From Opitutia bacterium (GTDB taxonomy: Bacteria; Verrucomicrobiota; Verrucomicrobiia; Opitutales; Opitutaceae): a DNA stretch of 64,000 nucleotides. Below are positions 53,070 through 56,592 of this stretch, piece by piece. The notes beneath the pieces were generated by a model. The model saw only the letters and a program-made list of their open reading frames with translations. It searched no databases and was not told where the DNA came from. Numbering within the stretch: position 1 is the stretch's first letter; every line of letters begins with the position of its first letter. A program made the position numbers and the translations under genes. The DNA is taken from assembly GCA_016187945.1 (NCBI GenBank), contig JACPIT010000001.1:124001-188000 (forward strand), read 5' to 3'.

Positions 53070-54989
53070 CTAAGCCAATCGCGACATGCGGCGGTTCGAT
53101 TCCGGAAAATCCACTCCCATCGCGAACCAGACAAGCAAGCCGATCGGCACAGCGGCCGCGGCGGCGAGGAAATTGAAACCCGACGCGGCTGGAACGTTCG
53201 GCGTCGCCACCGCGCTCAGGCCGATGCCAACGAGGAAACAGCCGAGCGCGAGCCATTGATAGATGGGCAGCCCGGCGATGCGGACCGTCTGCGGCTCGCC
53301 GCGGTAGGCTTCTTCCACGAATCGCGCGCACGTGCTGAGGAGCAAATAGGCGCCGACGATCAGGCCGGTTTCGGCGCGCTCCCACCACAGCCGCGCGAGC
53401 AGGCCGACGATCGCGACGTTGCCGAGGATCGAATAGAGCGGCGTCGGGTAGATCGGCACGCCGGCAAGTTTCGCGAGCTTGCAGACCCGCGAAAGCGGCT
53501 GACGGTAAGCGATGCCCCAGAGCGGTTCCGCCGCGGGCCGACCGTGGCAACAGCCTTGCGCGAGACAACGCAGCCGGCCGATCGCCTGGATGACGGGAGC
53601 GGCGACCGCGTAAGCCGCGCCGATTTCCCAGCCGTGGCCGCTCCACGCGTGCACGAGCAGCACGCCGAGCGCGCCGCCGAACAAGCCGCCGAAATAACCG
53701 AACGGGCGCGAGAGCTGCGACGAGGCTTCGAGCCATTGCCCCCACGCGCCCGCGCCGAGCAGCGCGCAGAGCGCCACGAAAGCGACTTCGCCGACGAAGG
53801 CGCGACCGAGTAACGAGCCCGCGACGGCGACACCGGTCGCCGCGGCGAGCCCGACGTAGGCCCCGTGATTGATGATGCGCACCGGACCGATGCGCCAGTC
53901 GCGCCAAAAATTCGCGACGCGCTCGCTCGCGTTCCGCAGCAGTCGCCAGAGCGCGAGGCGACGACGCACGGCGCGGAAGACCAGCAGTCCCGCGAGCACA
54001 TCGAGCGACGAATGAGCGCCGGTCGTGACGCAACTCACCACGATCGCGACCGCGACCGTCACTGCGGCCGGTTTCCCGATTCGCTGCCTCCAGGGCGCGA
54101 TGGTGGCGAGCGCCCAGAAAACGTGAAACGACGGCAGAGCGCAGGCGTTCGTATCGAGGTCGCGGTCAGCTCCGAGTGCGGCGCCGAGGAAGCTGGAGAG
54201 ATCGACGGCGCGAGGCGTGGCCACGAAGGGAAACGCCAGAAAACACCAGCCGATGATCGCCGTCGCCCACAGGGCGCTCGCGGTGAATTCACGCAAGGCG
54301 GACTGCGTGCGCGCGACGAACGGCGCCGCGCCGATCCAGGCGTAGGCGCCGAGATAGAACACGGCGGAGGATTCCCACACCGGCCAATTCCGCTCGAACG
54401 GCAGCATCGTGTCCACCGGCACGCGCCCCGCGCCGATGACGGCACACGCGCGATAAACGATGAACCACGCCCCGAACGCGAGGAACACCGCCGCGAGACG
54501 CCCCGCGAGCGACGGGGCGTCCTCGCGATTCGCCGGCAGCGCAAGCCACGGCGTGGGGCGCGTCGCGCCGAAACGGCGTTGCAGATCGATGCGCTCGTAG
54601 CCGATCACCAGAGCCACCAGCGCGAGCCACACGACGGGAGTCACGATCCAGAGGCCGCTCGCACTTCCCGCGAAAACCGCCGCGCCCGGCACCGCCAGCG
54701 CGAAGCCGACATAGATCGGATGCGGCACGCAGGCATAGGCGCCGGACGTGACCAGCCGCGGCGGCGGAAACGCGTTCATCGGCAACCCGCCGCCGCGCCG
54801 CCACAGATCCCACATGGCGCGGAGCATCAAGGCCACACCGATCGCCGCCACACTGCCGCCGATCAGCGAAGATTGGAGCCGCGGAAGGTAAAGATGCGCG
54901 TCGAGGCGTCCCGCCCACCAGGCCAGCAGCAACGGCACGCCGACGCAGAACGCGACACCATAGAGGAGACGACCGAGAAGCGGGTTCAT
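53070..54989 (-). CDS. Membrane fusion protein: PEMT/ICMT-like methyltransferase, PAP2 and Lgt-like domains
   Basis: A protein of 639 residues rich in membrane helices. Residues 40-140 match the isoprenylcysteine/phospholipid methyltransferase group (TSGAYACVPHPIYVGFALAV at 81-100). Residues 180-340 are PAP2-like: LPSFHVFWALATI (His289) and TTGAHSSLDVLAG (His326, Asp330). Residues 425-620 resemble prolipoprotein diacylglyceryl transferase: FGYFGGLFGGALG, GRLRCLAQGCCHGRP, YPTPLYSILGN, VEEAYRGEPQ. I know of no family that joins all three. Its start overlaps the upstream gene's stop (ATGA), so they are translationally coupled. Role: possibly modification of an exported lipid or lipid-linked substrate. 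Confidence 0.85.
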   Translation of the reverse strand: MNPLLGRLLYGVAFCVGVPLLLAWWAGRLDAHLYLPRLQSSLIGGSVAAIGVALMLRAMWDLWRRGGGLPMNAFPPPRLVTSGAYACVPHPIYVGFALAVPGAAVFAGSASGLWIVTPVVWLALVALVIGYERIDLQRRFGATRPTPWLALPANREDAPSLAGRLAAVFLAFGAWFIVYRACAVIGAGRVPVDTMLPFERNWPVWESSAVFYLGAYAWIGAAPFVARTQSALREFTASALWATAIIGWCFLAFPFVATPRAVDLSSFLGAALGADRDLDTNACALPSFHVFWALATIAPWRQRIGKPAAVTVAVAIVVSCVTTGAHSSLDVLAGLLVFRAVRRRLALWRLLRNASERVANFWRDWRIGPVRIINHGAYVGLAAATGVAVAGSLLGRAFVGEVAFVALCALLGAGAWGQWLEASSQLSRPFGYFGGLFGGALGVLLVHAWSGHGWEIGAAYAVAAPVIQAIGRLRCLAQGCCHGRPAAEPLWGIAYRQPLSRVCKLAKLAGVPIYPTPLYSILGNVAIVGLLARLWWERAETGLIVGAYLLLSTCARFVEEAYRGEPQTVRIAGLPIYQWLALGCFLVGIGLSAVATPNVPAASGFNFLAAAAAVPIGLLVWFAMGVDFPESNRRMSRLA

Positions 54990-55753
54990 TGAAAGCGCAC
55001 GAATTCGTGAATCGCCCAGCCGTCCGTCGGTGTGCCGTCGTCGGCGCGCAAGGTCGCGCGTGAGCACCATTTGGTTTCCTCGTAAGCGCGAATCTGCGCC
55101 GGCAGCCAGCGCGCGACGCGTGGCCAGCGGTGGAAAACCGTCTCGTCGAGGCGGCCGCTGCGCAGCACGCGCCGCGAGGTGAAATCGATCCGCCCTTCGC
55201 GCCAGACGACGGCATCGGGCGAAACGGCGTGCAATTCGCGCGACTGTCCGCCGTGCCAGAGCCAGTTGCGTTGCGTGTCGTGTTCCCAGGCGATCCAGAC
55301 GACGCTCGTCTCGGCGTTGACGAAGCGCCCCCAGTGCAGCGAGTCGATCGGCAGATGCCAGGGCGCGATCGTCATCCGTATCCGTTCGGCGTAACCCAAA
55401 CCCTGGAACTGCCGCTCGCCGACGCGCAACGTCACCTGAGCGCGCGGCGCGAAATTTTCCCACGACACGGCGCCGCTCGCGCCCGACCACAGGGTCTGCG
55501 CGATGGGTTGCGTCTGACTGCGCCAAATGCCGGAAACGGCGAGCGTCGGGCAATTCCATTGCCAGGCGCCGTCGACGAGAGCGGGGAGTTTGCCGCGCAG
55601 TGTGCGGATCTGCGTCGGCGGCTCGTTCTCTCCCGGCCCCCACATCAACAGCGCGGCCGGCGAGAGCGGCAATCCGACGCCCGCGAGTTTCGTGGCGTAG
55701 CCGATGCATCCGCTGCCGTCCGCACACACGACGTCGAGATAGAATTTCTCCAC
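54986..55753 (-). CDS. Unrecognised protein coupled to the membrane fusion gene
   Basis: A protein of about 255 residues with no signal peptide and no membrane helix. The sequence is beta-rich with many Trp (WGPGENEPPTQIRTLRGKLP, HWGRFVNAETSVVWIAWEHD). The pattern faintly resembles the lipocalin-like CrtC/AttH fold, but I am not sure. The GTG at 55753 (VEKFYLDVVCADGSG) was preferred because the ATG at 55801 overlaps the possible start of the divergent gene. Its TGA overlaps the ATG of the fusion gene, so it likely works with that membrane enzyme. Confidence 0.6.
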   Translation of the reverse strand: MEKFYLDVVCADGSGCIGYATKLAGVGLPLSPAALLMWGPGENEPPTQIRTLRGKLPALVDGAWQWNCPTLAVSGIWRSQTQPIAQTLWSGASGAVSWENFAPRAQVTLRVGERQFQGLGYAERIRMTIAPWHLPIDSLHWGRFVNAETSVVWIAWEHDTQRNWLWHGGQSRELHAVSPDAVVWREGRIDFTSRRVLRSGRLDETVFHRWPRVARWLPAQIRAYEETKWCSRATLRADDGTPTDGWAIHEFVRFQ

Positions 55754-55857
55754 GTTCAAGCGACCGAGCTTCCCACGGCCGGCACGAAATGGGAATCCCA
55801 TTCCACGGCAGGAAATCGCGCCTCGCGTCCGCGGGGCGGTTCGCTTGCGTCGAGGGC

Positions 55858-56592
55858 GTGAGTCGAGAAATGTGTTACCGCTGCTTCTGGCCGAAGGCGC
55901 TGTGTTGGTGCCCGACGTTGCGCGCCATGCCGACGCGGACGCGTTTCGTGTTCCTGATGCATCCGAAGGAATTCAAGCAGGAGAAGGCCAACACCGGGCG
56001 GCTGACGCGGCTTTGCCTCGAAAACAGCGAGCTGATCATGGGCCTCGGCTTCGATAGCGACCCGACGGTGCAGGCGCTGATCGCCGATCCGAGCAATTTC
56101 CCCGTGCTACTCTATCCGGGGCACGAGGCGCTGAATCTGTCGACCGCGAGCGTGGGCAATGTTGACGCGTTTCGGGAGCGGCTCGGCGCGCGACAACTCG
56201 TGGTCTTCCTGCTCGACGCCACCTGGGCCGGCGCGCGGAAAATGCTGCGACTGAGTCCGAACCTGCAGCGGTTGCCGCGCGTGATGTTCACGCCGACCGC
56301 CCCGAGCCGCTACGTGATCAAACAGCAGCCGCAAGAAGGCTGCCTCTCGACGCTCGAAGCCACGCACGAGCTGCTGCTCGCGCTCGAGCGCAGCGGCCTG
56401 GACGCGTATCCGGACCAGGCGCAACTGCTCGACGTCTTCGCGCGCATGCAGGACTACCAGCTCAAGTGCGCGGCCGATCCGGAGCGGCCGGGCTATCGGC
56501 GTCGGGCTTACAGCGCGCCGGAGGAGCGTGTCGGGCCGCGCGGACGCAGCGGCGAGCGCCGACAGAATTATCTGAAACGGCCGCTCGGGTGA
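55858..56592 (+). CDS. DTW-domain tRNA-uridine aminocarboxypropyltransferase
   Basis: A protein of 244 residues. CYRCFWPKALCWCP is the family's Cys cluster, and LLDATWAGARKML carries the DTW (here DATW) motif. VMFTPTAPSRYVIKQQPQEG and LSTLEATHELLLALE are further family blocks. DTW enzymes add the acp group to uridine in the tRNA elbow using SAM. The GTG at 55858 gives the usual start; an ATG at 55789 would extend into the divergent gene's start region. Confidence 0.88.
   Translation: MSREMCYRCFWPKALCWCPTLRAMPTRTRFVFLMHPKEFKQEKANTGRLTRLCLENSELIMGLGFDSDPTVQALIADPSNFPVLLYPGHEALNLSTASVGNVDAFRERLGARQLVVFLLDATWAGARKMLRLSPNLQRLPRVMFTPTAPSRYVIKQQPQEGCLSTLEATHELLLALERSGLDAYPDQAQLLDVFARMQDYQLKCAADPERPGYRRRAYSAPEERVGPRGRSGERRQNYLKRPLG

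Follow-up and report, generated by a model that had tools for sequence, protein, structure and literature searches.

AttH, 25-phosphosteroid lyase and the Diels-Alderases are enzymes or binders of hydrophobic compounds. For the AttH family, one study proposes a role in lipid transport (PMC2954199), and another names H239, W241, Y266 and D268 as the catalytic residues of CrtC (PMC4717167). For Lgt of Escherichia coli, a mutational study reports that the mutants it tested at Y26, H103 (including a change to Tyr), G145, E151 and R143 have no activity (PMC4728403). Among open-licence papers we found none that mentions PAP2 alongside prolipoprotein diacylglyceryl transferase, none that uses "Lgt-like" together with paralog and diacylglyceryl transferase, and none that links an "inverted topology" to diacylglyceryl transferase; the names ICMT and Lgt co-occur in one annotation survey.

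Here we describe a two-gene unit that encodes relatives of these proteins, found in a stretch of 64,000 nucleotides (the window) from the draft genome of an Opitutia bacterium (GCA_016187945.1, contig JACPIT010000001.1; genome G000 below). We propose, with a probability of roughly 0.4, that the pair forms a cassette, not characterised before, for the transfer and tailoring of a lipid group. Its domains, the folds of its predicted models, the recurrence of the pair and the conservation of its residues are directly supported. The features of the unit are as follows.

53070..54989, minus strand: three-domain membrane protein (the fusion), 639 residues; open reading frame and translation with an ATG start, and Pfam
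54567..54863, minus strand: PEMT/ICMT-like methyltransferase (MT) domain, residues 43-141; Pfam PF04191 just above cut-off, and conservation counts of its residues
53976..54320, minus strand: PAP2_3 (Aur1/sphingomyelin-synthase-like) domain, residues 224-338, with H289, H326 and D330; Pfam PF14378 and VIA
53214..53885, minus strand: Lgt-fold domain, residues 369-592; Pfam PF01790, VIA and a profile match to 5azb
54986..55759, minus strand: partner, predicted soluble double-lipocalin (AttH/CrtC-fold) protein of ~260 residues; AlphaFold2, fold matches and a CrtC profile match
54986-54989, minus strand: ATGA stop/start overlap of the fusion and partner genes; sequence

The first-pass annotation had described a single chain with three domains, a PHP(I/L)Y motif and both catalytic histidines of PAP2, coupled by an ATGA overlap to the gene upstream, and each of these features is present. 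From the N to the C terminus, the fusion exceeds the Pfam cut-offs of PEMT (29.0 bits, cut-off 25, a match that is barely above it), PAP2_3 (42.5, cut-off 27) and LGT (70.1, cut-off 24.9), and the ICMT model gives 20 bits, under its cut-off of 24. The MT domain carries H90-P91-x-Y93 within PHPIY (residues 89-93), E132 and the motif RGGGLPMN, and the Lgt-fold domain carries R472-x-R474-C475-x4-C480-C481-H482 together with R556, E560 and R563. The AlphaFold2 model of the fusion has a pLDDT of 87.0 and a pTM of 0.89, and is weak (<50) at residues 71-75, 423-427 and 633-639. Sequence searches of the PDB with the whole fusion, as a single sequence or as a three-row profile, gave no match. The ATGA junction is also found in L034, L035, L039 and L046. 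The open reading frame of the partner opens at ATG 55801, but TTG 55759 or GTG 55753 (the latter being where the first-pass annotation ends the pair) is the likelier start, as homologues begin near residue 15 of this frame.

The unit is rare yet widely scattered among distant bacteria. Among 141 genomes of the genus, family and order of the window (its own included), the full-length fusion occurs in three (G000, G003 and G054) and damaged copies in two (G038 and G028). When an 84,980-species collection was scanned, 59 candidate stretches came up and 14 of them were confirmed as loci of the unit; the scan used two peptide patterns of the MT domain, so members lacking them were missed. These loci are three Opitutae-type or verrucomicrobial records, Akkermansia glycaniphila, Anaeromyxobacter, Candidatus Sulfotelmatobacter, Polyangiaceae, Myxococcaceae, two other Deltaproteobacteria, a Planctomycetia, Hymenobacter, a Gemmatimonadetes whose contig ends within the Lgt-like part, and a remnant, L047; phylum names that go beyond the record titles are those we take to apply. 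Two of them, L034 and L046, are apparently the records of G054 and G003. With a profile of the partner, sequences used to build a profile matching it by construction, hits were obtained in 5 of 384 genomes of the class of the window (its own and one damaged copy included). In the phylum to which a myxobacterial member belongs, 10 of 195 genomes gave a hit, and in the Hymenobacter family 2 of 150. At an E value of 0.01, Pfam recognises PEMT in all 14 aligned members (window included), and LGT and PAP2_3 in 13 each. No plasmid copy was found by tblastn in 72,556 plasmid records (E 1 for the partner, 0.001 for the fusion).

The two genes are closely linked. Of 23 loci with a three-domain protein, two of them cut or shortened (L043 and L040), 22 have the partner directly upstream in the same orientation. 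The fusion led us to 14 of these loci, counting the window, and 13 of the 14 have the partner so placed; nine were reached through the partner and are thus linked by selection. The exception is Hymenobacter montanus (L045), where the partner is on another contig; a relative in the same family (L127) has both genes side by side. Ten genomes of the myxobacterial phylum have the partner, nine with an adjoining three-domain protein and one in a split form. In 21 genomes, distances between fusions and between partners show a modest correlation (r 0.37), a value that one of 2000 permutations attains, and the two trees agree in their broad groups. The first-pass annotation had suggested a search for the same pair in other genomes, and since this pair recurs in other phyla, its association goes beyond chance. 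The same architecture and gene order across phyla also rule out a chance open reading frame or an annotation artefact.

L032, L033 and L047 carry damaged versions of the cassette. Decaying copies are seen at L033:5068-6344 (internal loss in the fusion), L032:5107-6145 (fragmented pair) and L094:4217-5091 (MT-only remnant). At L125:847-5823 the partner occurs twice in tandem with a truncated first copy of the fusion, which is either a duplication or an assembly artefact.

A wider conserved operon was not found. We clustered neighbouring open reading frames of 100 residues or more by blastp in 16 of 22 loci, setting aside duplicates (L034 and L046), damaged loci (L032 and L033) and short ones (L050 and L051), and no other protein cluster occurs in more than 3 of the 16, ORF shadows aside. 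The remaining clusters are such shadows, pairs, or synteny between closely related genomes in at most 3 loci. The Pfam-annotated neighbours in the window (DEAD helicase, DTW, FKBP, EamA and Tex) do not point to lipids, and those elsewhere vary between loci (mostly unannotated ORFs, those picked in 17 loci being listed only). The DTW-domain gene (55843-56592, putative start) is divergent from the cassette and adjoins it in G003 too.

The sole annotated context that hints at lipid metabolism is the split cassette of genome G593 (L126:4316-11939). It combines an MT-LGT protein that lacks PAP2, the partner, and, as a protein of its own, PAP2 joined to an ABC-2 permease-like part, and therefore the parts stay together even when unfused. 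It is flanked by genes for a fatty acid desaturase and a PLP enzyme, and by a fatty-acid-hydroxylase family gene. These three proteins and an ORF of L093, named hydroxylase-like by eye, were rejected as regular neighbours, since phmmer found only the proteins themselves, apart from loose His-box matches.

The partner is, according to its AlphaFold2 model (pLDDT 94.2, pTM 0.90), a double-lipocalin protein of the AttH/CrtC/Diels-Alderase fold. VIA matches of this type range from Z 17.7 to 21.5, including the Diels-Alderases Fsa2, CghA and Phm7 (19.9-21.5), AttH NE1406 (2ich, 18.6 over 231 residues), 25-phosphosteroid lyase (18.4) and kievitone hydratase (17.9), with the next row in the list at only 7.9. 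In hhalign, a profile of the partner aligns with a profile of seven CrtC sequences at a probability of 85.6 (E 5.6e-6), compared with 34.3 for one CrtC alone and 0.2 for two unrelated pairings; all seven come from plasmid records, where six carry an annotation as hydratase or dehydrogenase of the CrtC pathway and one carries none. In this alignment, onto which CrtC numbering was transferred via the conserved H-x-W and Y-x-D, partner residues W102, Y125 and E127 fall at CrtC Trp241, Tyr266 and Asp268. W102 and Y125 are present in 24 of 24 rows and E127 in 23, the remaining one having Asp. The position of CrtC His239 is V, L, I or T in all 24 rows, and never His.

The first-pass annotation had called the partner unrecognised and perhaps lipid-binding. 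Pfam indeed gives no match for the window protein (E 10) and one weak match among 13 members (E 0.043), and the lipocalin-type fold is in keeping with the second suggestion, but the protein is now recognisable by its AttH/CrtC fold. The lack of a Pfam match is uninformative, because an annotated CrtC sequence gave none either. Profile and sequence searches of the PDB with the partner returned nothing meaningful (best E 0.15). By eye, no signal peptide is visible in the homologues, whose first element is a polar strand, so the partner is probably cytoplasmic. Compared with CrtC, AttH, the Diels-Alderases and 25-phosphosteroid lyase, the partner shares the double-lipocalin fold and keeps the Trp, Tyr and acid of the CrtC centre, but it is about 260 residues long, has neither a Pfam match nor the CrtC His, and, in the genomes covered, occurs alongside the membrane protein or a remnant of it.

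The likeness to CrtC raises the strongest rival explanation, in which the pair modifies an isoprenoid such as a polyprenyl, carotenoid or quinone tail. PAP2 would dephosphorylate it, the CrtC-like partner would hydrate or eliminate at a double bond, the ICMT-like domain would methylate, and the Lgt-fold domain would hold or transfer the isoprenoid. The alignment with CrtC and the match to 25-phosphosteroid lyase are consistent with this explanation, as is a match of the PAP2 model to PgpB (Z 9.5), described in that match as a C55-PP phosphatase. However, the CrtC His is missing from the partner, and no isoprenoid gene was recognised among the incompletely annotated neighbours of the cassette. 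The fold also does not fix the substrate, because the top matches are Diels-Alderases. We consider an isoprenoid substrate unlikely on this evidence.

The PAP2 domain suggests another possibility, namely that the pair exchanges sphingolipid or phospholipid headgroups, with the Aur1-like domain as the main enzyme and the others as accessories. The best fold matches of this domain are indeed IPC synthase (9vj4, Z 12.2 over 203 residues, rmsd 3.6, below the level of about 13 that the fold tool advises for helical bundles) and the sphingomyelin-synthase-related protein SMSr (8ijq, Z 11.8); its profile reaches AUR1 at E 0.16 only. It shares with both the PAP2 core with H289, H326 and D330, but it is bacterial and part of a larger chain, and its centre is complete in 20 of 23 rows, one or more of the residues being absent from L042, L122 and L124. 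Both trees group these three Myxococcota members into one clade, and all three retain the partner and the Lgt-like core, which makes PAP2 look accessory and headgroup exchange a poor candidate for the main reaction.

The MT domain resembles the PEMT/ICMT membrane methyltransferases in its HPxY and conserved Glu and in passing the PEMT Pfam cut-off, and differs by its own RGGGLPMN motif. In the window it has PHP where ICMT has RHP, and one Glu where the family usually has EE. For this domain as for PAP2, sequence support beyond Pfam is weak, its profile reaching ICMT chains at E 0.06; the fold search with the fusion model listed no match for this domain, which says nothing against the assignment. 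The motif is intact in 21 of 23 rows (Q replaces H90 in L130, and part of the domain is absent from L123). Since the PAP2 centre is incomplete in three rows and the MT motif damaged in two, not every step can be obligatory. R472, C475, C480, C481 and R556 of the Lgt-like domain, and the Trp, Tyr and acid of the partner, have no exception wherever the region is present. The Lgt-fold domain and the partner are thus the unvarying core. This invariance of polar residues at catalytic places argues against mostly non-catalytic domains serving as a lipid carrier or a scaffold in membrane stress, an explanation that could account for the incomplete PAP2 and MT centres and would agree with the transport role proposed for the AttH family (PMC2954199); we think it improbable.

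The Lgt-fold domain model superimposes on E. coli Lgt (VIA match to 5azb, Z 17.7, rmsd 3.4, 233 residues), and Lgt is the sole PDB match of its profile (5azb, E 2.3e-8). In the alignment it retains R143, R239, E243 and R246 of Lgt as R472, R556, E560 and R563, as well as G142, G150 and G154. R472, C475, C480, C481 and R556 are kept in all 22 rows that hold the region, and E560 and R563 in 21 of 21. In contrast, H103, G145, N146, E151 and E202 are replaced by F, R, C, C and S in the window, and the equivalents of H103, G145 and E151 are F/Y433, R474 and C480 in 22 of 22 rows. The candidate position for Y26, residue 375, lies outside the HMMER alignment and is His in 18, Tyr in four and Ile in one of 23 rows, the window having His. 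The NCBIfam Lgt equivalog models score far below their cut-offs on the fusion (47.4 against 334 bits, and 24 against 118.9 bits). The Lgt-like domain of the first-pass annotation thus falls short, in part, of the test set in that annotation: it is upheld by Pfam and by fold, but the equivalogs fail and H103, G145 and E151, essential in Lgt, are replaced, and so the domain has the fold of Lgt without qualifying as one.

Five standalone non-canonical Lgt-family paralogues (L102, L104, L105, L106 and L107) occur in relatives that all have a strong Lgt too. L102:2425-3228 carries GCFLAGCCYG, and so the CC variant is not exclusive to the fusion; L104-L107 carry GCF-x2-GLDD or GLED variants of the signature. 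None of the five has GRLRC-x4-CCHG.

A canonical lgt was not found in G000, where the fusion is the only LGT-family match and signal peptidase II is present. In 91 of 94 other relatives, there is an LGT match far stronger than that of the fusion (best E 4e-27 or lower), and G003 and G054 carry the fusion plus such a match. G000 likewise lacks glgC, the gene that flanks lgt in the relative G007, and this points to a gap in the assembly. We believe that the missing lgt is probably a draft gap and possibly a loss. The canonical lgt of G054 (L034:3996-4871) has the same orientation as the cassette and is some 2.4 kb away from it.

The predicted orientation of the Lgt-like domain is also opposite to that of Lgt. 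Over 21 rows (L040, L043 and the split L126 set aside), K/R density is higher in the predicted inside loops of the fusion in every row (0.141 inside, 0.051 outside), with loop limits taken from the AlphaFold2 model, a weak guide near residues 71-75 and 423-427. For the Lgt-like domain only (linker and tail excluded), loops on the active side have 0.131 K/R against 0.025 on the opposite side, again in 21 of 21 rows. The bias is reversed in 11 canonical Lgts of relatives (0.080 against 0.236), which are those scored among 30 fetched loci (18 did not yield the required motifs and one was skipped), with loop limits set by motif distances. Helix 344-361 of the fusion should not span the membrane because it is too polar (Kyte-Doolittle mean -0.29, five charges). 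Counting helices from an assumed cytoplasmic MT site, with this helix not crossing, places the PAP2 site in the periplasm and the Lgt-like site in the cytoplasm. Charge and connectivity thus both predict that the active side of the Lgt-like domain faces the cytoplasm. The replaced residues and the fusion to two further domains set it apart from Lgt, and so would this predicted orientation.

The weakest alternative, a genuine prolipoprotein diacylglyceryl transferase whose phosphatidylglycerol donor is supplied by the fused enzymes, would fit the LGT Pfam match, the fold Z of 17.7 and the sole LGT-family match in a draft genome with signal peptidase II, but the replacements in all 22 rows, the strong separate LGT of other relatives and of fusion carriers, the joint absence of glgC and the predicted orientation make it very improbable.

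We therefore return to a cassette that transfers and tailors a lipid group, for which each reaction step and the lipid are inferred from family knowledge. In the central step, the Lgt-fold domain would move a glyceryl- or isoprenyl-type lipid group to a non-lipoprotein acceptor, using the retained Arg/Arg/Glu centre (R472, R556 and E560) and the invariant Cys cluster. The MT-like domain, with HPxY and E132, would methylate the product on the same, cytoplasmic, face, and the partner, with its Trp and Tyr-x-Glu centre, may extract the tail of the same lipid or alter it by hydration, elimination or isomerisation. The Aur1-like PAP2 domain may strip or swap a phosphate or phospho-headgroup on the periplasmic face, a step that can be lost. 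A more specific version, which we regard as doubtful, is that a flipped Lgt-fold transferase (C-x4-CC in place of the Asn/Glu of Lgt, and without the HGGL His), the methyltransferase and the CrtC-like enzyme make a membrane lipid not yet described, such as a methylated glycerolipid with an ether or thioether linkage. The new pathway for modifying and transferring a lipid group, suggested in the first-pass annotation, is thus kept as the best guess, and true Lgt chemistry is not supported.

If this proposal is correct, it would provide a function for Lgt-family proteins that match the lipoprotein-transferase model without the essential residues of Lgt, and the pair would represent a compact, portable lipid-modifying unit. 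If the predicted orientation holds, it would mean that the Lgt fold can turn over in the membrane and be put to use on its opposite side.
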